Shown here piece by piece: positions 2 through 64,000 of a stretch of 64,000 nucleotides of DNA. The notes beneath the pieces are model-generated. The model was not told where the DNA came from, ran no database searches, and was given only the letters and a program-made list of their open reading frames with translations. The stretch lies in contig JABLTG010000053.1 in assembly GCA_016618085.1 (NCBI GenBank), positions 40,408-104,407 on the forward strand, given 5' to 3'. The first letter of the stretch is position 1, and every line of letters starts with the position of its first letter. The DNA is from Neovahlkampfia damariscottae. Lineage: Eukaryota; Heterolobosea; Selenaionea; Neovahlkampfiida; Neovahlkampfiidae. A program made the position numbers and the translations under genes.

Positions 2-3000
2 TGGTCTGATATTTGGTTACTACAAGGATTTGCAGGTTATTTAGAATTGATTTTTCTTCAAAAAGAATTTGGAAAAAATGAATTTAAATATCAATTCTTG
101 AAAGCTGCTGAAAGATTAAATGAATTGGAAACACATAAGCAACCTTTATTCTCAAAGAATTATATTCATCCTTCAGAACTTTTAACTGAATATATGAAGA
201 TTAAATCAGCTTATGTTATTCATATGATTGGTAAATTTGTCAGTTTGACAAATCTTAAAAAGTACATGAACAAATTAATCGTTGCTACTGAAACAAAAGA
301 TGATTATTCTAATCGTTTTGTTTCAACAAAAAGTGTAATCAAAATTTTGAAGAATACTTATGGGGTTGATTTGAAACATTTCTTTGAGTACTGGGTTTAT
401 TCAACTGGAATTCCAATTCTTCATTGTGGATATAAATATGATGTTGGAAGAAGTATTATTGAAATTGATATCAAACAGGAAATTCCTTATCATGGTAAAC
501 TTTTCAATGGAAATTTTGTAGTCCGTGTTCATGAGACTGAAGGAACAATTGATTACACTATTCCTTTGGAAGATGAAAAAAATCATTTCGAATTTGTTTG
601 TAGATCTAAAGCAAAAAAGAAACAAAGAAAAAAAGTTGTAGAAGCTGGTAAAGAAGCAACAGATGCCAATAGAATTGAAGTACCAATCAAATGGTTCAGA
701 ATTGATCCAGAATGTGATTGGCTTCGTGTCATTAAAATTGATCAATCAGAAGAAATGTGGTCAAATCAATTAGAAATGGATAAAGATGTAATTGCACAAT
801 CTGAAGCTGCTACAAACCTTGGTGAATTCAATGATTCACCAACTGCGTTAACCAAACTTGAAAATGCAGCTTATGACAAAACAATGTATTACCGCATCAG
901 AATTGAAGCATTAGAAAGTATGTCAAAATTTCCAGAACAAAATGCATTATCAGGAGTTGATTTAGTGATCAAATACTTTAAAACTTTATTCTACGATAAA
1001 AAAATGACATATTTGAAACCAAATGATTTCTCAAACTTTCAAGAGTATTTCATCAAAAAAGAACTTCCTTTGATCATTGTCAAGGAATCAAATTCACAAT
1101 CTATATTGAAATTTTTGTTAGAAATCTTAAAAAACAATGACAATTCAGAGAACAAATATAGTGATTGCTATTATGTTGGTAACATCATTAAAGCTTTGGG
1201 TATGATTGAAACAACACAATTGGACAAAGTTTTAAAACATGTAAAAAGAATTTTAGTCATGGACTCTTTACTACCAACACCAAAGAATATCTTAACTTGT
1301 TATTGTTTATATTCATTTTCTCATATTGAAGCATCTGGTAGGGATTCAAAAAATTTCGACCAATTTATGGAATTAATTAAATTTGATAATATTTTTGAAT
1401 TAAGAAAAGCAGGATTTCAATGCATGATAAATATCATCACTTCTAAGAAATCAAAATATAATCAAGTTGATTCTTTTGTTGAAGAAATTTTTAAAATTTT
1501 ATTTGACGAAAATGAAAATAAAAAATATCAAATATATGTGATTTCAACATTGAATGAAGTAATTAGACAAATAATCTTGATAAAAGATAAACAATCTCCT
1601 TTGGGAAAATTCATTGATTTTTTGAAATCAACAGACACAGAAGCTTTGAAAACTATTCAAAAGTTTTGGGGAATTCTTAGAAGTGAAATTCCTGATTACT
1701 CGGCTCAATTAAGAAGGTTATTTGTTAACACCTATTATTTAATTTGGAAAGATAGAGCTCCAAATTCATGTTCAAAAATACCATATGATGAAGAAGAAGA
1801 ATTAAAAAAATTAAAAGAAGCAGATTTACAAGCAAAGAAAGAAATGTATGTACCACAATTATCAGCACCTACATTTCCATTTGAAAAAAAGAGAAAACTT
1901 GAATTACAAAAACAAAAACAAAAAAAGAAAAAAGTGGATACCTCAAAAGTTACAATCAAATTGGGAGATCAAACTATTGAACGTGAGATTGATGTTGATT
2001 CAACAGCACCACAAGAACCTGCTGTTTATTATACACCTGAAGAATTAAAACAAATAGAAATCGAAGAAATGAAAAGATACGAGGAAGAATTGAAGAATAG
2101 AAAAGAATTACAAGAAAGAGATAAAAAAATCATGAACCAACAAATTGAAATTCAAAATAAAATTCGTGAAGATAGAAAAGCTAAAGGACATGGTGACAGA
2201 ACAGTTTTGTTGATCGGAAATTCAGTTTTGACAGTTCGTTTGTATGAAACACCAACAGCTGAAAATCTATTCAAAAGTTTACCAATCACAGCAACTGAAG
2301 TATCTGAAGAGAAAGGTGTTATTTATTTTCCATGTCCAGGAATGCAAATTTGTCCAAATGAAGATCATCAACGACAAGTCGTTACAAGAGGCGAATTAGC
2401 CTATTGGGTTGAAGGAAATTCAATTTGCATTGGTCATGGAAATACACCATGGACAGCAAAAGGAACAAGTGATATCGTTCTTTATCAGCCTTGCAATATC
2501 TTTGGAATCACTTCTCAGTCTGTTAAAAAATTACAAGATTGTACAGATATCATTATTGAAAGACCAAGAAGAATGGTAATTGAATTTGAAAAAACAGGTT
2601 TAAAAATACAAGTTGATATTGGTTTGGATCAAGCTTCCAATTATGTTTATGATAATTTACCAATCCCATCTGCTGAATTAGTAAAATATGGTCAAATGAG
2701 ATATTTCTCTTGTTATGGAAATCCACAAGGAAAACCTTCCAAAAAAACACCAGAAGATATTTACAGAAACTATTTACTTTATGGTGAAGTCGCATTTTGG
2801 CCAAGTGGTAATTCAATCATTTTAGGATCAGGTCCTTCTGAACAAATTGATCCTAATCATCCAGAAAGAATTTTGCTTTTAGAATCATGTTATGTTTTTG
2901 GTCGTATTGTTTCAGATATTGAAAAAATTTCTGAAATTTCTTATGATGTCATCAAAATGTACAAAAGAAGTTTGAAAATTTCTATAAATGATCAAATTAC

Positions 3001-3451
3001 TTTAGTAGCTGATTTAAATGATTCAATTACATCAGATATCATTTATCAAAATCTACCAATGGAATCATCAACAAAATTATTTGGAAATTTAGTTTATTTT
3101 GATGTTAAAATGAATGAAAAAATACCAATAGAGTCAAATTGTGAAAAAATTGTTTTGAAACCTGAAGATTTAGCATTTTGGGTTGATAAATCAAATATTT
3201 GTATTTGTTGGGGTAAAACTGAAAATTCATTTCAAGATGAACCAAGATTATCAGCACCTTGTAATGTTTTTGGTAGAATCAGAAAAGAATTTAATGTGAT
3301 TGAGTTGTTAAATGGAATGAATGGGAAAGAAGATTTGAAAGTAAAAATTGAAGAGTACAATCATTATGAAAATTTGGAAATGATTCATTCATCAGTAATG
3401 AGCGGTTCTGTTCAACAACAACCAATTGTTCACAGTTTAGATATTGAATAA
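2..3451 (+). CDS. TAF2: TAF2-like TFIID subunit (3' part) fused to three cyclophilin-like domains
   Basis: The reading frame is open from the left edge, so the N-terminus lies outside the window. The start of the visible part (DIWLLQGFAGYLE) and the following about 600 residues match the inactive M1-aminopeptidase-like body of TAF2, the TFIID subunit that contacts the initiator. A lysine/glutamate-rich coiled stretch (about residues 600-720 of the visible part) leads into three repeats of about 110 residues (about 733-846, 855-975, 987-1095). Each repeat carries the signature of the bacterial/archaeal TM1367-type cyclophilin-like family: a YF strand, then G-E-[LV]-A-[YF]-W, a GNSI-type turn and a final N-[VI]-FG-[RI]. 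I know of no TAF2 with such domains. The stop codon overlaps AATAAA. No intron is seen in this part. The TAF2 call rests on the motif run and the length; the added domains are clear by pattern. Confidence 0.75.
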   Translation, partial: WSDIWLLQGFAGYLELIFLQKEFGKNEFKYQFLKAAERLNELETHKQPLFSKNYIHPSELLTEYMKIKSAYVIHMIGKFVSLTNLKKYMNKLIVATETKDDYSNRFVSTKSVIKILKNTYGVDLKHFFEYWVYSTGIPILHCGYKYDVGRSIIEIDIKQEIPYHGKLFNGNFVVRVHETEGTIDYTIPLEDEKNHFEFVCRSKAKKKQRKKVVEAGKEATDANRIEVPIKWFRIDPECDWLRVIKIDQSEEMWSNQLEMDKDVIAQSEAATNLGEFNDSPTALTKLENAAYDKTMYYRIRIEALESMSKFPEQNALSGVDLVIKYFKTLFYDKKMTYLKPNDFSNFQEYFIKKELPLIIVKESNSQSILKFLLEILKNNDNSENKYSDCYYVGNIIKALGMIETTQLDKVLKHVKRILVMDSLLPTPKNILTCYCLYSFSHIEASGRDSKNFDQFMELIKFDNIFELRKAGFQCMINIITSKKSKYNQVDSFVEEIFKILFDENENKKYQIYVISTLNEVIRQIILIKDKQSPLGKFIDFLKSTDTEALKTIQKFWGILRSEIPDYSAQLRRLFVNTYYLIWKDRAPNSCSKIPYDEEEELKKLKEADLQAKKEMYVPQLSAPTFPFEKKRKLELQKQKQKKKKVDTSKVTIKLGDQTIEREIDVDSTAPQEPAVYYTPEELKQIEIEEMKRYEEELKNRKELQERDKKIMNQQIEIQNKIREDRKAKGHGDRTVLLIGNSVLTVRLYETPTAENLFKSLPITATEVSEEKGVIYFPCPGMQICPNEDHQRQVVTRGELAYWVEGNSICIGHGNTPWTAKGTSDIVLYQPCNIFGITSQSVKKLQDCTDIIIERPRRMVIEFEKTGLKIQVDIGLDQASNYVYDNLPIPSAELVKYGQMRYFSCYGNPQGKPSKKTPEDIYRNYLLYGEVAFWPSGNSIILGSGPSEQIDPNHPERILLLESCYVFGRIVSDIEKISEISYDVIKMYKRSLKISINDQITLVADLNDSITSDIIYQNLPMESSTKLFGNLVYFDVKMNEKIPIESNCEKIVLKPEDLAFWVDKSNICICWGKTENSFQDEPRLSAPCNVFGRIRKEFNVIELLNGMNGKEDLKVKIEEYNHYENLEMIHSSVMSGSVQQQPIVHSLDIE

Positions 3452-61371: not shown

Positions 61372-63165
61372 ATGCAATTTAATCCATCAACAGGTAAACC
61401 ACAAACTTCAAGTAAAAAATTTAGGAGAAAAATTAGGTGAAATTGAATCAACAGATATTTCAAAACTTCCAGATATTTTTAAAAAAGCGAAAGAAGCTCA
61501 ACAAACATGGTCAAAATTTAGTTTTTCCAAAAGAGCAACTTTTATTGAAAAAATGAGAAAGTATTTAGTTGACAACTCGGAAGAAATATCAAAAATTATA
61601 TCTGAATCAACTGGTAAAACTAGAACAGATGCTCTTCAAACAGAAGGTATGATTACTTTTTAAATAAATTTCAAAAGTACTTCCTGGAACAATGGCTTGT
61701 AAATGGTATTCCTCAAACGCAGAATATTATCTAAAACCACAATCAGTTCCAATGGGTAACCTTTTGTTTGGAAATAAAGGAACATCAATACAATTTGATC
61801 CAGTTGGAATTGTTGGTATCATTAGTCCATGGAATTATCCATTTTCAATTCCATTTGGCGAGGTAATCATGGGATTAATGGCAGGTAATGCAATAATCTT
61901 AAAAGTTGCCTCAAATGTCACTTTGGTTGGTCAAGCAATTGACAACATTATCAAAGCTGGAAATCTTCCTGAAGGTTTGTTTACTCACTTAGTTTGCAGT
62001 GGATCAAAAGCATCAAAGGAAATGCTCAAAAATAATGTGAACAAAATATTCTTCACTGGATCTGTAGCTGTTGGAAAAACTTTAATGAAAGATGCTTCGG
62101 AAACTTTAACACCATTATCATTGGAACTTGGAGGAAATGATCCTGCTGTAGTTTTAAAAGATGCAAACCTTGAAAAAGCGACTAATTGTATATGTTGGGC
62201 TGGATTACAAAATGCTGGACAATCTTGTGCTGGTATTGAAAGAGTCTATGTTCAAAAAGAAGTCTATGAAGAATTCAAAATTTTGATGATCAAAAAAATC
62301 AAAAGTTTGAGACATGGAAGTGATAAAGGTGATTTTAAAGTTGATATTGGAAGTTTAACAACAAAAAGTCAATTCAATACTGTTGATGAACAAGTCAATG
62401 AAGCTTTGAAATCTGGTGCAAAAATCATTGCTCAATCAAAACCTGTTGGTGATGTTAGTAGTGGATTTTTTTATCCAGCAACTTTATTAGAAGGAGTTAC
62501 ACATCAAATGAAAATTATGAGAGATGAAACTTTTGGACCTGTACTTCCAATCATGAAATTTGATTCAATTGAAGAAGGTATTGAATTGGCGAATGATTCC
62601 GATCTTGCTTTAACAGCATCTGTTTATTCAGAAGATTCAATAAAAGCACATCAAATTGCAAATAAATTAGTAGCTGGAATGGTTACAATTAATGATCATC
62701 TTTACACTCATGGAATGTCTGAAAATCGTAAGAACAAATCATACTAAAAAATCAAGCTTGGGGTGGTCCAAAACTTAGTGGATTAGGTAGAACTCATGGA
62801 GAATTAGGATTAAAAGAAATGTGCAATGCAAAAGCAATCAATTGGGAAAGACTTCCTGGAGTTCAAAGAAGTAAGTATTTTATTGAATTTTTAACATTTA
62901 AGATTTATGGTGGTATCCACAATCATCGATTTCTTATCAAGGTATGTTGAATGCATTGAAATTGGCAAACCCAAATGGTATTGGAGATCTCATTTCAAGT
63001 GTGACAAAGGTGACACCATTTGCTTTAAACAAAATGTTCACCAAATGGGATACAGAACATGAAGAAATCGAACCAAAGAACTTGCAAATGTTTCTTTTGA
63101 TGTTGATTGTTGGTGTTATTTTGTTAATTTTATTCATAGCATCAAAGATCGTTTTCAAAATGTAA
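61372..63165 (+). CDS. Aldehyde dehydrogenase with C-terminal membrane anchor
   Basis: Five exons (61372-61393, 61425-61646, 61678-62727, 62757-62870, 62903-63165; introns 31, 31, 29 and 32 nt) give 556 residues. ALDH signs are ISPWNYPFSIP, FTGSVAVGK, the catalytic Glu in LELGGNDPA, the catalytic Cys in NAGQSCAGIERV, ETFGPVLPI and GLGRTHGELG. A tail helix (LQMFLLMLIVGVILLILFIA) anchors it, as in fatty aldehyde dehydrogenases, so ER or peroxisomal fatty-aldehyde oxidation is likely. CCAAT lies 5 bp before the ATG. It diverges from the PAQR gene over 135 bp. Confidence 0.9.
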
Positions 63166-63278: not shown

Positions 63279-63359
63279 GCAGGTGTGGCCGAGCGGTCAA
63301 GGCGACTGACTTGAAATCAGTTGGGATTTCCCGCGCAGGTTCGAATCCTGTCACCTGCG
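63279..63359 (+). tRNA. tRNA-Ser(UGA)
   Basis: The 81-nt gene has acceptor stem GCAGGTG/CACCTGC with discriminator G, anticodon stem ACTGA with loop CTTGAAA (anticodon TGA), the long variable arm of class II tRNAs, and T arm GCAGG-TTCGAAT-CCTGT. A T-run at about 63369 terminates Pol III. No intron is present. Confidence 0.95.
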
Positions 63360-63577
63360 AAATATATGTTTTTTTTTGTTGAAGTTGAAATTTCAATTTT
63401 TTTGTTATTCTTCCAATCATGACTTTGAGGAATTAAATCAATTAATGAGCAGAGATTTGAAGGTGAGGAGATAAAAAAATAAATTCGGACCAATCAAACG
63501 AGTTTAGGAACAAGTTGATGAAAAAGTTACTGGTGACCATTTCTCTATTTTTGATAACCGCTATCATAAAACTGACT
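63360..63577. other. Region 3' of the Fanzor-like gene
   Basis: No gene was seen in these 218 bp. A CCAAT is near 63490. It follows the nuclease gene's stop on the minus strand, the place where a guide RNA would be encoded in TnpB/Fanzor systems, but no end of a transposon or structured RNA was recognised. Confidence 0.4.
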
Positions 63578-64000
63578 TTACCGTTCATTCTGATTAATCA
63601 GACCAGACATTAAAATCAAGGTTTCTTTCGGGATAGGACCGTCGCCAGCAGTACTGGCAGTTTTTGGATTTCCAATAAAATTTTGTATATTCATCAGAAA
63701 TATATTTCTTGCTCCATTATAATCTCTTGGAAGAGAAAAATTACAATATTTACAATTGAAATAATCTTTTTTTCCAAGTTTCCAATCTATTTTTCCACAT
63801 GATCCACATGTACAACTGGTATAATGTTCTGAAACTTCATGTACTTGAACAGAATCTTTTTGAGCAAGATGTTTTAATGTTTGACGAAATTGAAAATGAG
63901 ACCAATGAAGCATTTTTCTCACTGTTGTACTATGAATTTTTCTTTCCCATTTTTTAATCATTCCTTTGACTGGAAATTTTGAAATCAAAATTTCATCATT
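63578..64000 (-). CDS. Fanzor/TnpB-like RNA-guided nuclease, C-terminal part
   Basis: The frame is open to the right edge, so the N-terminus is outside. The 140 visible residues give NDEILISKFPVKGM, MLHWSHFQFRQTL, then SEHYTSCTCGSCG and CKYCNFSLPRDYNGARNIFL. That is the OrfB zinc ribbon (CxCGSC...CxxC) followed by the third RuvC motif D-x-N-x-A-x-N, seen here as DYNGARN. These are the hallmarks of TnpB and its eukaryotic relative Fanzor. Codon use and base composition match the neighbours, so it is part of the nuclear genome and not bacterial contamination. Whether RuvC motifs I and II are intact cannot be seen. Confidence 0.8.
   Translation of the reverse strand, partial: NDEILISKFPVKGMIKKWERKIHSTTVRKMLHWSHFQFRQTLKHLAQKDSVQVHEVSEHYTSCTCGSCGKIDWKLGKKDYFNCKYCNFSLPRDYNGARNIFLMNIQNFIGNPKTASTAGDGPIPKETLILMSGLINQNER

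Follow-up and report, generated by a model that had tools for sequence, protein, structure and literature searches.

What is the open reading frame (ORF) that runs off the end of a 64,000-nucleotide stretch of Neovahlkampfia damariscottae DNA (the window; contig JABLTG010000053.1 of assembly GCA_016618085.1, positions 40,408 to 104,407 of the forward strand), and to what kind of element does it belong? An earlier sequence-only reading had taken it for part of a gene encoding a TnpB/Fanzor-like RNA-guided nuclease. Our analysis makes it likely that the ORF is the right-hand part of a Fanzor2 transposable element of a family termed A, and that its family B relatives overprint the transposase gene tnpA. 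It also appears more likely than not, as far as sequence comparison can tell, that dual coding within IS607 tnpA characterizes the lineage of pro-Fanzors and Fanzor2. The N-terminal extension of the nuclease, including a short clamp (PFW ... SWF) packing on the nuclease, would have arisen by overprinting. In its most complete form it would begin 7–10 nt past the tnpA start, and it would have persisted in later elements that lost tnpA.

The Fanzor2 C-terminus at the window end

The ORF covers the last 140 codons of a Fanzor2 gene of family A (63578..64000, minus strand, as are all element features below). Base 64000 of the window is the final base of the contig, here called C256 (C256:104407); the contig end cuts the ORF, which is readable only from there down, and the next 2 kb, where the sequence-only reading proposed to look for RuvC-I and RuvC-II, lie beyond it. 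A profile search matched fragment residues 35–100 to PF07282 (Cas12f1-like_TNB) with 60.2 bits and an E value of 2.1e-16. The ORF is not a product of chance, because the whole genome (20.4 Mb, 307 contigs) contained 81 PF07282 matches, of which 79 were above the curated cut-off.

The zinc ribbon and the last RuvC motif, which the sequence-only reading had called intact, are so. The CxxC...CxxC ribbon (CTCGSCG...FNCKYC, 63743..63808), supported by the PF07282 match, has its Cys at fragment residues 65, 68, 83 and 86, and the RuvC-III catalytic Asp of PRDYNGARNI lies at 63722..63724 (residue 93). The Glu is absent from the canonical RuvC-II strand ILISKF (63974..63991), and an alternative RuvC-II Glu (Ealt) was found in VSEHYTS at 63827..63829 (residue 58), six residues separating it from the first zinc-ribbon Cys. 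Excerpts of PMC10711439, from which these RuvC-II criteria were taken, give DPG in RuvC-I and Ealt beside the zinc ribbon as the Fanzor fingerprint. The DPG was seen in longer sister copies, as IALDPGVRTFQTGF (IALDPGVRTF) in the family A copies L012, L013 and L014, and the RuvC-I of the family B copies L010 and L011 reads SIDPGVRTFS. The sequences thus support the presence of the published fingerprint in the window feature, with DPG supplied by sister copies and Ealt by the window itself.

By its closest relatives and by structure, the element type is Fanzor2 rather than Fanzor1. The mimivirus Fanzor2 of PDB entry 9b0l ranked first by sequence for families A and B and first by structure for the B type, and GtFz was found only at rank 36 in the structure comparison of the B type. 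The window element adds a new member to a known kind, and Fanzor2 in a protist is already known.

Overprinting of tnpA in family B and its relatives

In family B, the N-terminal extension of the Fanzor2 ORF overlaps an IS607-type tnpA almost fully in the +1 frame. PF00239 was found at six places in the genome, all of them in family B sequence. The copy on contig C3 (L049) encodes a TnpA of 234 aa directly upstream of Fanzor (NF033518, 176.5 bits; cut-off 110). A second frame, +1 to tnpA, is open from 10 nt past the tnpA ATG through the tnpA end; it is in frame with Fanzor and separated from it by a single stop, and the junction is open in the copies on C303 and C241. Similar extensions are present in database relatives of 592 to 651 aa (P0121, P0122, P0123, P0126, P0128 and P0136). 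In the host copies, the extension ATG lies 10 nt after the tnpA ATG; position –3 is A for the former and T or C for the latter. This difference makes leaky scanning plausible: both proteins would come from one transcript, in this host by ribosomes passing a presumably weak tnpA start and initiating at the Fanzor start 10 nt on.

The same arrangement was found at viral and cyanobacterial loci, both sets of which include near-identical loci. Among 38 loci on viral contigs, TnpA was present at 36; the Fanzor frame was +1 in 36/36 and the overlap, measured from the first ATG, was at least 200 nt in 32/36. Among the best 80 of 403 cyanobacterial loci, TnpA was present at 76, with the frame +1 in 69/76 and an overlap of at least 200 nt in 55/76. 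Arthrospira sp. PCC 9108 and Oscillatoria sp. PCC 10802 are examples of cyanobacteria carrying several pro-Fanzor copies. The extension ATG follows the tnpA ATG by 7 nt at viral L055–L059 and L085 and at cyanobacterial L136, L147 and L164, and by 10 nt at cyanobacterial L142, L148, L152, L154, L160 and L172. At most other loci listed, the distance between the two first ATGs is larger or negative. The comparison suggests that the start of the nuclease gene often overprints tnpA, alike in bacteria, on giant-virus contigs and in this eukaryote. The cyanobacterial extensions of L132–L135 and L138–L141 begin MKQL..WEF; this resembles a beta-clamp motif, a likeness that could be due to chance. At another cyanobacterial locus (L124:2485-4170), TnpA and TnpB homologies share one frame of 562 codons, apparently a fusion or a decayed copy.

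Selection on both frames was examined in two ways. In the first, 1000 shuffles exchanged synonymous codons within each tnpA while keeping protein and codon usage, with one sequence taken per 70% cluster. TnpA frames with a profile score of at least 120 and a coverage of at least 75% were kept, which leaves out decayed tnpA genes. L124, the sole frame of at least 300 codons, was also excluded; its 34 stops in the +1 frame run against the pattern. Assignment by neighbour class failed for 22 viral TnpA, of which 21 were retained as lineage members (their loci had been found via Fanzor2), and L081, on the minus strand, was counted as unassigned. For the 33 lineage sequences, 57 stops were observed in the +1 frame compared with 180.0 expected, the lowest shuffle giving 154. 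The observed and expected numbers were 5 and 47.9 for cyanobacteria (n = 11), 51 and 125.1 for viral contigs (n = 21), where many overlaps are confined to the 3' part of tnpA, and 1 and 7.2 for the host (n = 1). Six clusters with an unassigned neighbour gave 79 stops compared with 86.0 expected. Of the 12 unassigned cyanobacterial tnpA, two (L177 and L180) are free of +1 stops and are probably members of the overprint lineage.

The second test makes use of the fact that, in the +1 overlap, the TnpA wobble base falls on position 2 of the Fanzor codon. In bins of falling identity, TnpA four-fold sites were more alike than those of the Fanzor core in 19/19, 52/52, 123/125 and 466/506 pairs from cyanobacteria, and in 6/6, 2/2, 4/4, 80/83 and 239/273 pairs from viral contigs. 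At equal TnpA identity, the four-fold likeness was 0.86, 0.63, 0.51, 0.47 and 0.48 in the lineage (22, 75, 354, 363 and 42 pairs), and 0.47, 0.37, 0.30, 0.28 and 0.27 in canonical and unassigned tnpA (2, 12, 32, 25 and 38 pairs). In neither comparison are the pairs independent, and the control bins are small. The groups were set by the neighbouring nuclease; grouping by stop counts (≤3 versus ≥6, L124 in the control) gave the same picture. These results favour selection on both frames over tnpA in the pro-Fanzor/Fanzor2 lineage.

The extension was also compared as a protein. The alignment of the predicted B-type model with 9b0l reaches residue 108 of the extension, which was unique to 9b0l among the 50 matches listed; some Cas12e alignments extend back to model residues 141–144, and reach into the extension as such is not unique to 9b0l. 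In the model, part of the B-type extension is thereby shown to align with an ordered part of the solved mimivirus Fanzor2. A profile of the overprinted extension was searched against 104 N-terminal parts of at least 50 residues, proteins without DPG or with a short N-terminus having been excluded; 73 matched at E 1e-3, and of 14 picked out only P0197 passed (1.5e-4).

The open +1 frame could instead be a mere by-product of the amino acids and codons that TnpA uses, with the nuclease starting downstream of tnpA. The database protein of a cyanobacterial relative (P0100, 391 aa) indeed begins near the core, and most of the extension is predicted to be disordered, residues 1–107 being below 50 in the predicted local distance difference test (pLDDT). 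But the stops return on synonymous permutation, and the TnpA four-fold sites have a likeness of 0.63 in the 70–85% identity bin compared with 0.37 in other IS607 tnpA. Moreover, in five cyanobacterial IS607 tnpA beside non-Ealt TnpB the +1 frame is broken by 16 to 25 stops (mean 19.8, expected 18.2), and a Trp of the extension is conserved in 54/54 aligned proteins, its region aligning with ordered residues of 9b0l. We regard a by-product as improbable. Elements of the IS3 type make fusions by programmed frameshifting, and the overlap could likewise serve the production of a TnpA-nuclease fusion, as the constant +1 offset in 36/36 viral loci with TnpA and the single frame of L124 might suggest. 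Frameshifting, however, requires a short overlap and not one of ~600 nt, and in several groups a separate start codon for the extension lies 7 or 10 nt beyond that of tnpA, which leaves this explanation very improbable. Overprinting under selection is preferred, and several observations have to be set against it. The +2 control frame, though near expectation, was also slightly low in the lineage (424 stops compared with 455.1, z –2.2), and the canonical control is small, its five genes falling in one 70% cluster (21 stops compared with 20.8 expected). In the host, both frames are intact over the readable part in 0/6 family B copies. The within-host selection test (15 pairs from the six B copies, which are mosaic and partly decayed) was weak and is not used as support; the third-position excess in host B tnpA was below that of the core for some pairs only. 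In addition, the family A extension (PFWW ... WTKK) gave no significant match to the overprinted-extension profile (P0007, E 0.55; P0012, E 0.002), and its descent from an overprinted one is unsupported.

If the overprint is real, it would tie transposase and nuclease to each other genetically and offer a sequence-level reason why the two stay paired in this IS607 lineage, which is held in excerpts of PMC10711439 to have entered eukaryotes. It would also provide a protein segment born from the second frame of another gene, with a solved structure for comparison. Many Fanzor2 and pro-Fanzor annotations would then be truncated, and proteins cloned from annotated starts may miss an N-terminal part.

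Ends, copies and predicted guide RNA of family A

The copies fetched sort into two families, A (the window type) and B, with sharp borders and unrelated flanks beyond. Transposon ends, which the sequence-only reading had proposed to look for, were thus found for the family. The right terminus of the window copy lies at 63558..63579 (C256:103965-103986) with one mismatch to AAAGTCAGTTTTAAGATAGCGG, so that the element ends at 63558. The family A right end reads ...GTCAGTTTTAAGATAGCGG and lies eight bases beyond the usual stop codon; the left end begins (A)CGGCTAATGAATTGATGG. A search with up to three mismatches found 105 right and 94 left ends in the genome, and 0 with the reversed patterns. The termini carry a 6-bp imperfect inverted repeat (CGGCTA/TAGCGG), GG was found at the left end in 6/7 copies, and a target-site duplication of more than 2 bp was absent in the seven copies examined. 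Measured against IS607-type elements (GG at the exchange site, neither terminal inverted repeats nor target-site duplication), this is a mixed picture. The other end of contig C256 also bears a family A right end (C256:202-223). Family A proteins begin MSKQLKLDSFW, MSKQLTLDSFL or MSKQLKLDSFL (L012 oriented strand 1321-1356; P0007, P0008), which we take to resemble a PCNA-binding PIP box, possibly by chance.

Twelve copies have both ends on one contig, as derived from listed coordinates that cover 100 of the 105 right ends; they measure 122, 272, 561, 561, 569, 579, 579, 579, 580, 919, 1161 and 1871 bp. In the ~570-bp form, seen in C2, C240, C39, C273 and C127, L012 positions 1155-1311 are joined to 2612-3037. 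The contig of the window copy breaks off precisely at the base matching L012 position 2612, from which point long and short copies differ, and the window copy may be of either form. With ~100 copies, down to 122 bp, this genome offers a compact set for testing guide-only elements; the 122-bp copy itself (C37:20589-20710), which has both family A ends by coordinates, would be one if it makes guide RNA.

By analogy with known Fanzors, we infer a guide-RNA function for the window element. Since family A terminates right after its stop codon, any scaffold must overlap the coding end. A scaffold region is predicted at 63558..63690, over the 3' end of the ORF, from the family B right end and excerpts of PMC10432273, and the guide, the first ~20 nt of the flank, at 63538..63557 from the position of the terminus. 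The segment 63360-63577, where the sequence-only reading would have sought the guide RNA, would contain the predicted guide only; a scaffold would have to extend into the ORF. The 3' end of the ORF would thus double as scaffold and the first flank bases as guide. The ribonucleoprotein would cut the empty site that excision leaves behind, and the element would be copied back during repair. The right end of family B, which ends ~65 bases past the stop, folds much better than shuffles (z –6.37). For family A, movement in trans by a recombinase from elsewhere is inferred.

The chance is slightly better than even that the window copy itself is just an inactive fragment or a miniature element, ends plus a leftover ORF tail that was moved or stayed behind with no nuclease function. 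The contig break coincides exactly with the ~570-bp-form junction, 7/12 of the two-ended copies measure 561–580 bp, and the stop codon of the window copy comes four codons earlier than is usual in family A. On the other hand, a break at 2612 is also expected where long and short copies diverge and does not tell the form, two-ended copies on single contigs are biased toward short ones, and at least one copy, on C260, holds a frame of 384 aa open to its contig start. The Fanzor C-terminus of the sequence-only reading stands, and this copy is one of ~100 repeats, perhaps a non-autonomous deletion form. Contamination by bacterial TnpB has a negligible probability. TnpB is commonest in prokaryotes and one better-scoring family B homologue comes from a bacterial metagenome-assembled genome (MAG), but ~100 copies are spread across contigs of one assembly, they carry the Fanzor fingerprint, and the composition is that of the neighbourhood. 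The GC content of the ORF (0.303) is close to that of 60–63.5 kb (0.309) and of the whole window (0.294), in line with the sequence-only reading. The reading as a family A Fanzor2 transposable element is retained, and some results count against it. The break at the short-form junction means that the window copy may have lost its nuclease. No tnpA or recombinase frame was found in L012, the longest family A copy, and no family A transposase was found. The fold of 63558-63690 was not significant compared with shuffles (z –1.49). The search for empty sites that had been proposed, run with one pattern from both flanks of the C144 copy, gave 0 matches and is uninformative in this single assembly.

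The tRNA-Ser(TGA) that had been placed next to the gene (63279..63359, plus strand; tRNA search) is a neighbour outside the element, 198 bases from its end. A family B copy on C33 likewise has its right end beside a tRNA-Ser(TGA), at about 20 bases (L031:6255-6335). These two are among six tRNA places with the exact tRNA-Ser(TGA) score and length, and the tRNA 3' end faces the element. Any tRNA was found in 4/40 loci (L009–L048, repeats of the same copies included). Insertion targeted to tRNA genes is not claimed; the tRNA search scored 63 of 1902 candidates, too few for any rate. An aldehyde dehydrogenase gene with 99% identity to a EukProt protein lies at 61668-62950, its frame interrupted by an apparent short GTAAGT...AG intron. 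Elsewhere, a family B copy (L030, C263:48000-57900) appears by eye to lie within a gene for EGF-like Cys-rich repeats.

Comparison with known systems

No description of the overprint was found in the literature searched (supplements and subscription journals lay outside the search), which included word searches of PMC10711439, PMC10432273, PMC11423790, PMC3627910, PMC9956272, PMC6188088 and PMC11061315, and the main text of PMC10711439 contains no word beginning 'overlap'. Excerpts of PMC6188088 state that IS607 has 'two orfs, which often overlap', and those of PMC9956272 name an overlapping IS607 type; neither extent nor lineage is given in these passages. Within the limits of these searches, the architecture is a known one and its overprinted form is new.

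Among solved structures, the system compared here is the Fanzor2 of Acanthamoeba polyphaga mimivirus (TnpB-like protein L79, PDB 9b0l, 520 aa), considered as protein and structure; no paper on 9b0l turned up in the literature search. The best named-eukaryote homologue of family B among the 120 listed is the Naegleria lovaniensis Fanzor2 C9374_005788, with 44% identity over 95%. Its short extension (PFW...GWFNF) matches the overprinted-extension profile (E 1.5e-4) but is too short for a full tnpA. According to excerpts of Saito et al. 2023, NlovFz2 was used there; this may be another locus. P0131, a TnpB of 387 aa from a Flavisolibacter MAG, has 51% identity to B, above that of Naegleria, and lacks the long extension; it may come from a mis-binned eukaryotic contig or be a bacterial relative.

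The pro-Fanzors, cyanobacterial IS607 TnpB described in excerpts of PMC10711439, have the same DPG and Ealt signature and the same +1 overprint, but are bacterial. Other IS607 elements share the IS607-type TnpA and GG at the exchange site, according to excerpts of PMC6188088. In the five non-Ealt cyanobacterial IS607 controls, the stop-to-stop overlap is ~30 nt or none, unlike in the lineage. SpuFz1 of Spizellomyces punctatus (PMC10432273, excerpts) likewise has many partial or nuclease-less loci beside full ones, but differs in being a Fanzor1 with inverted repeats.
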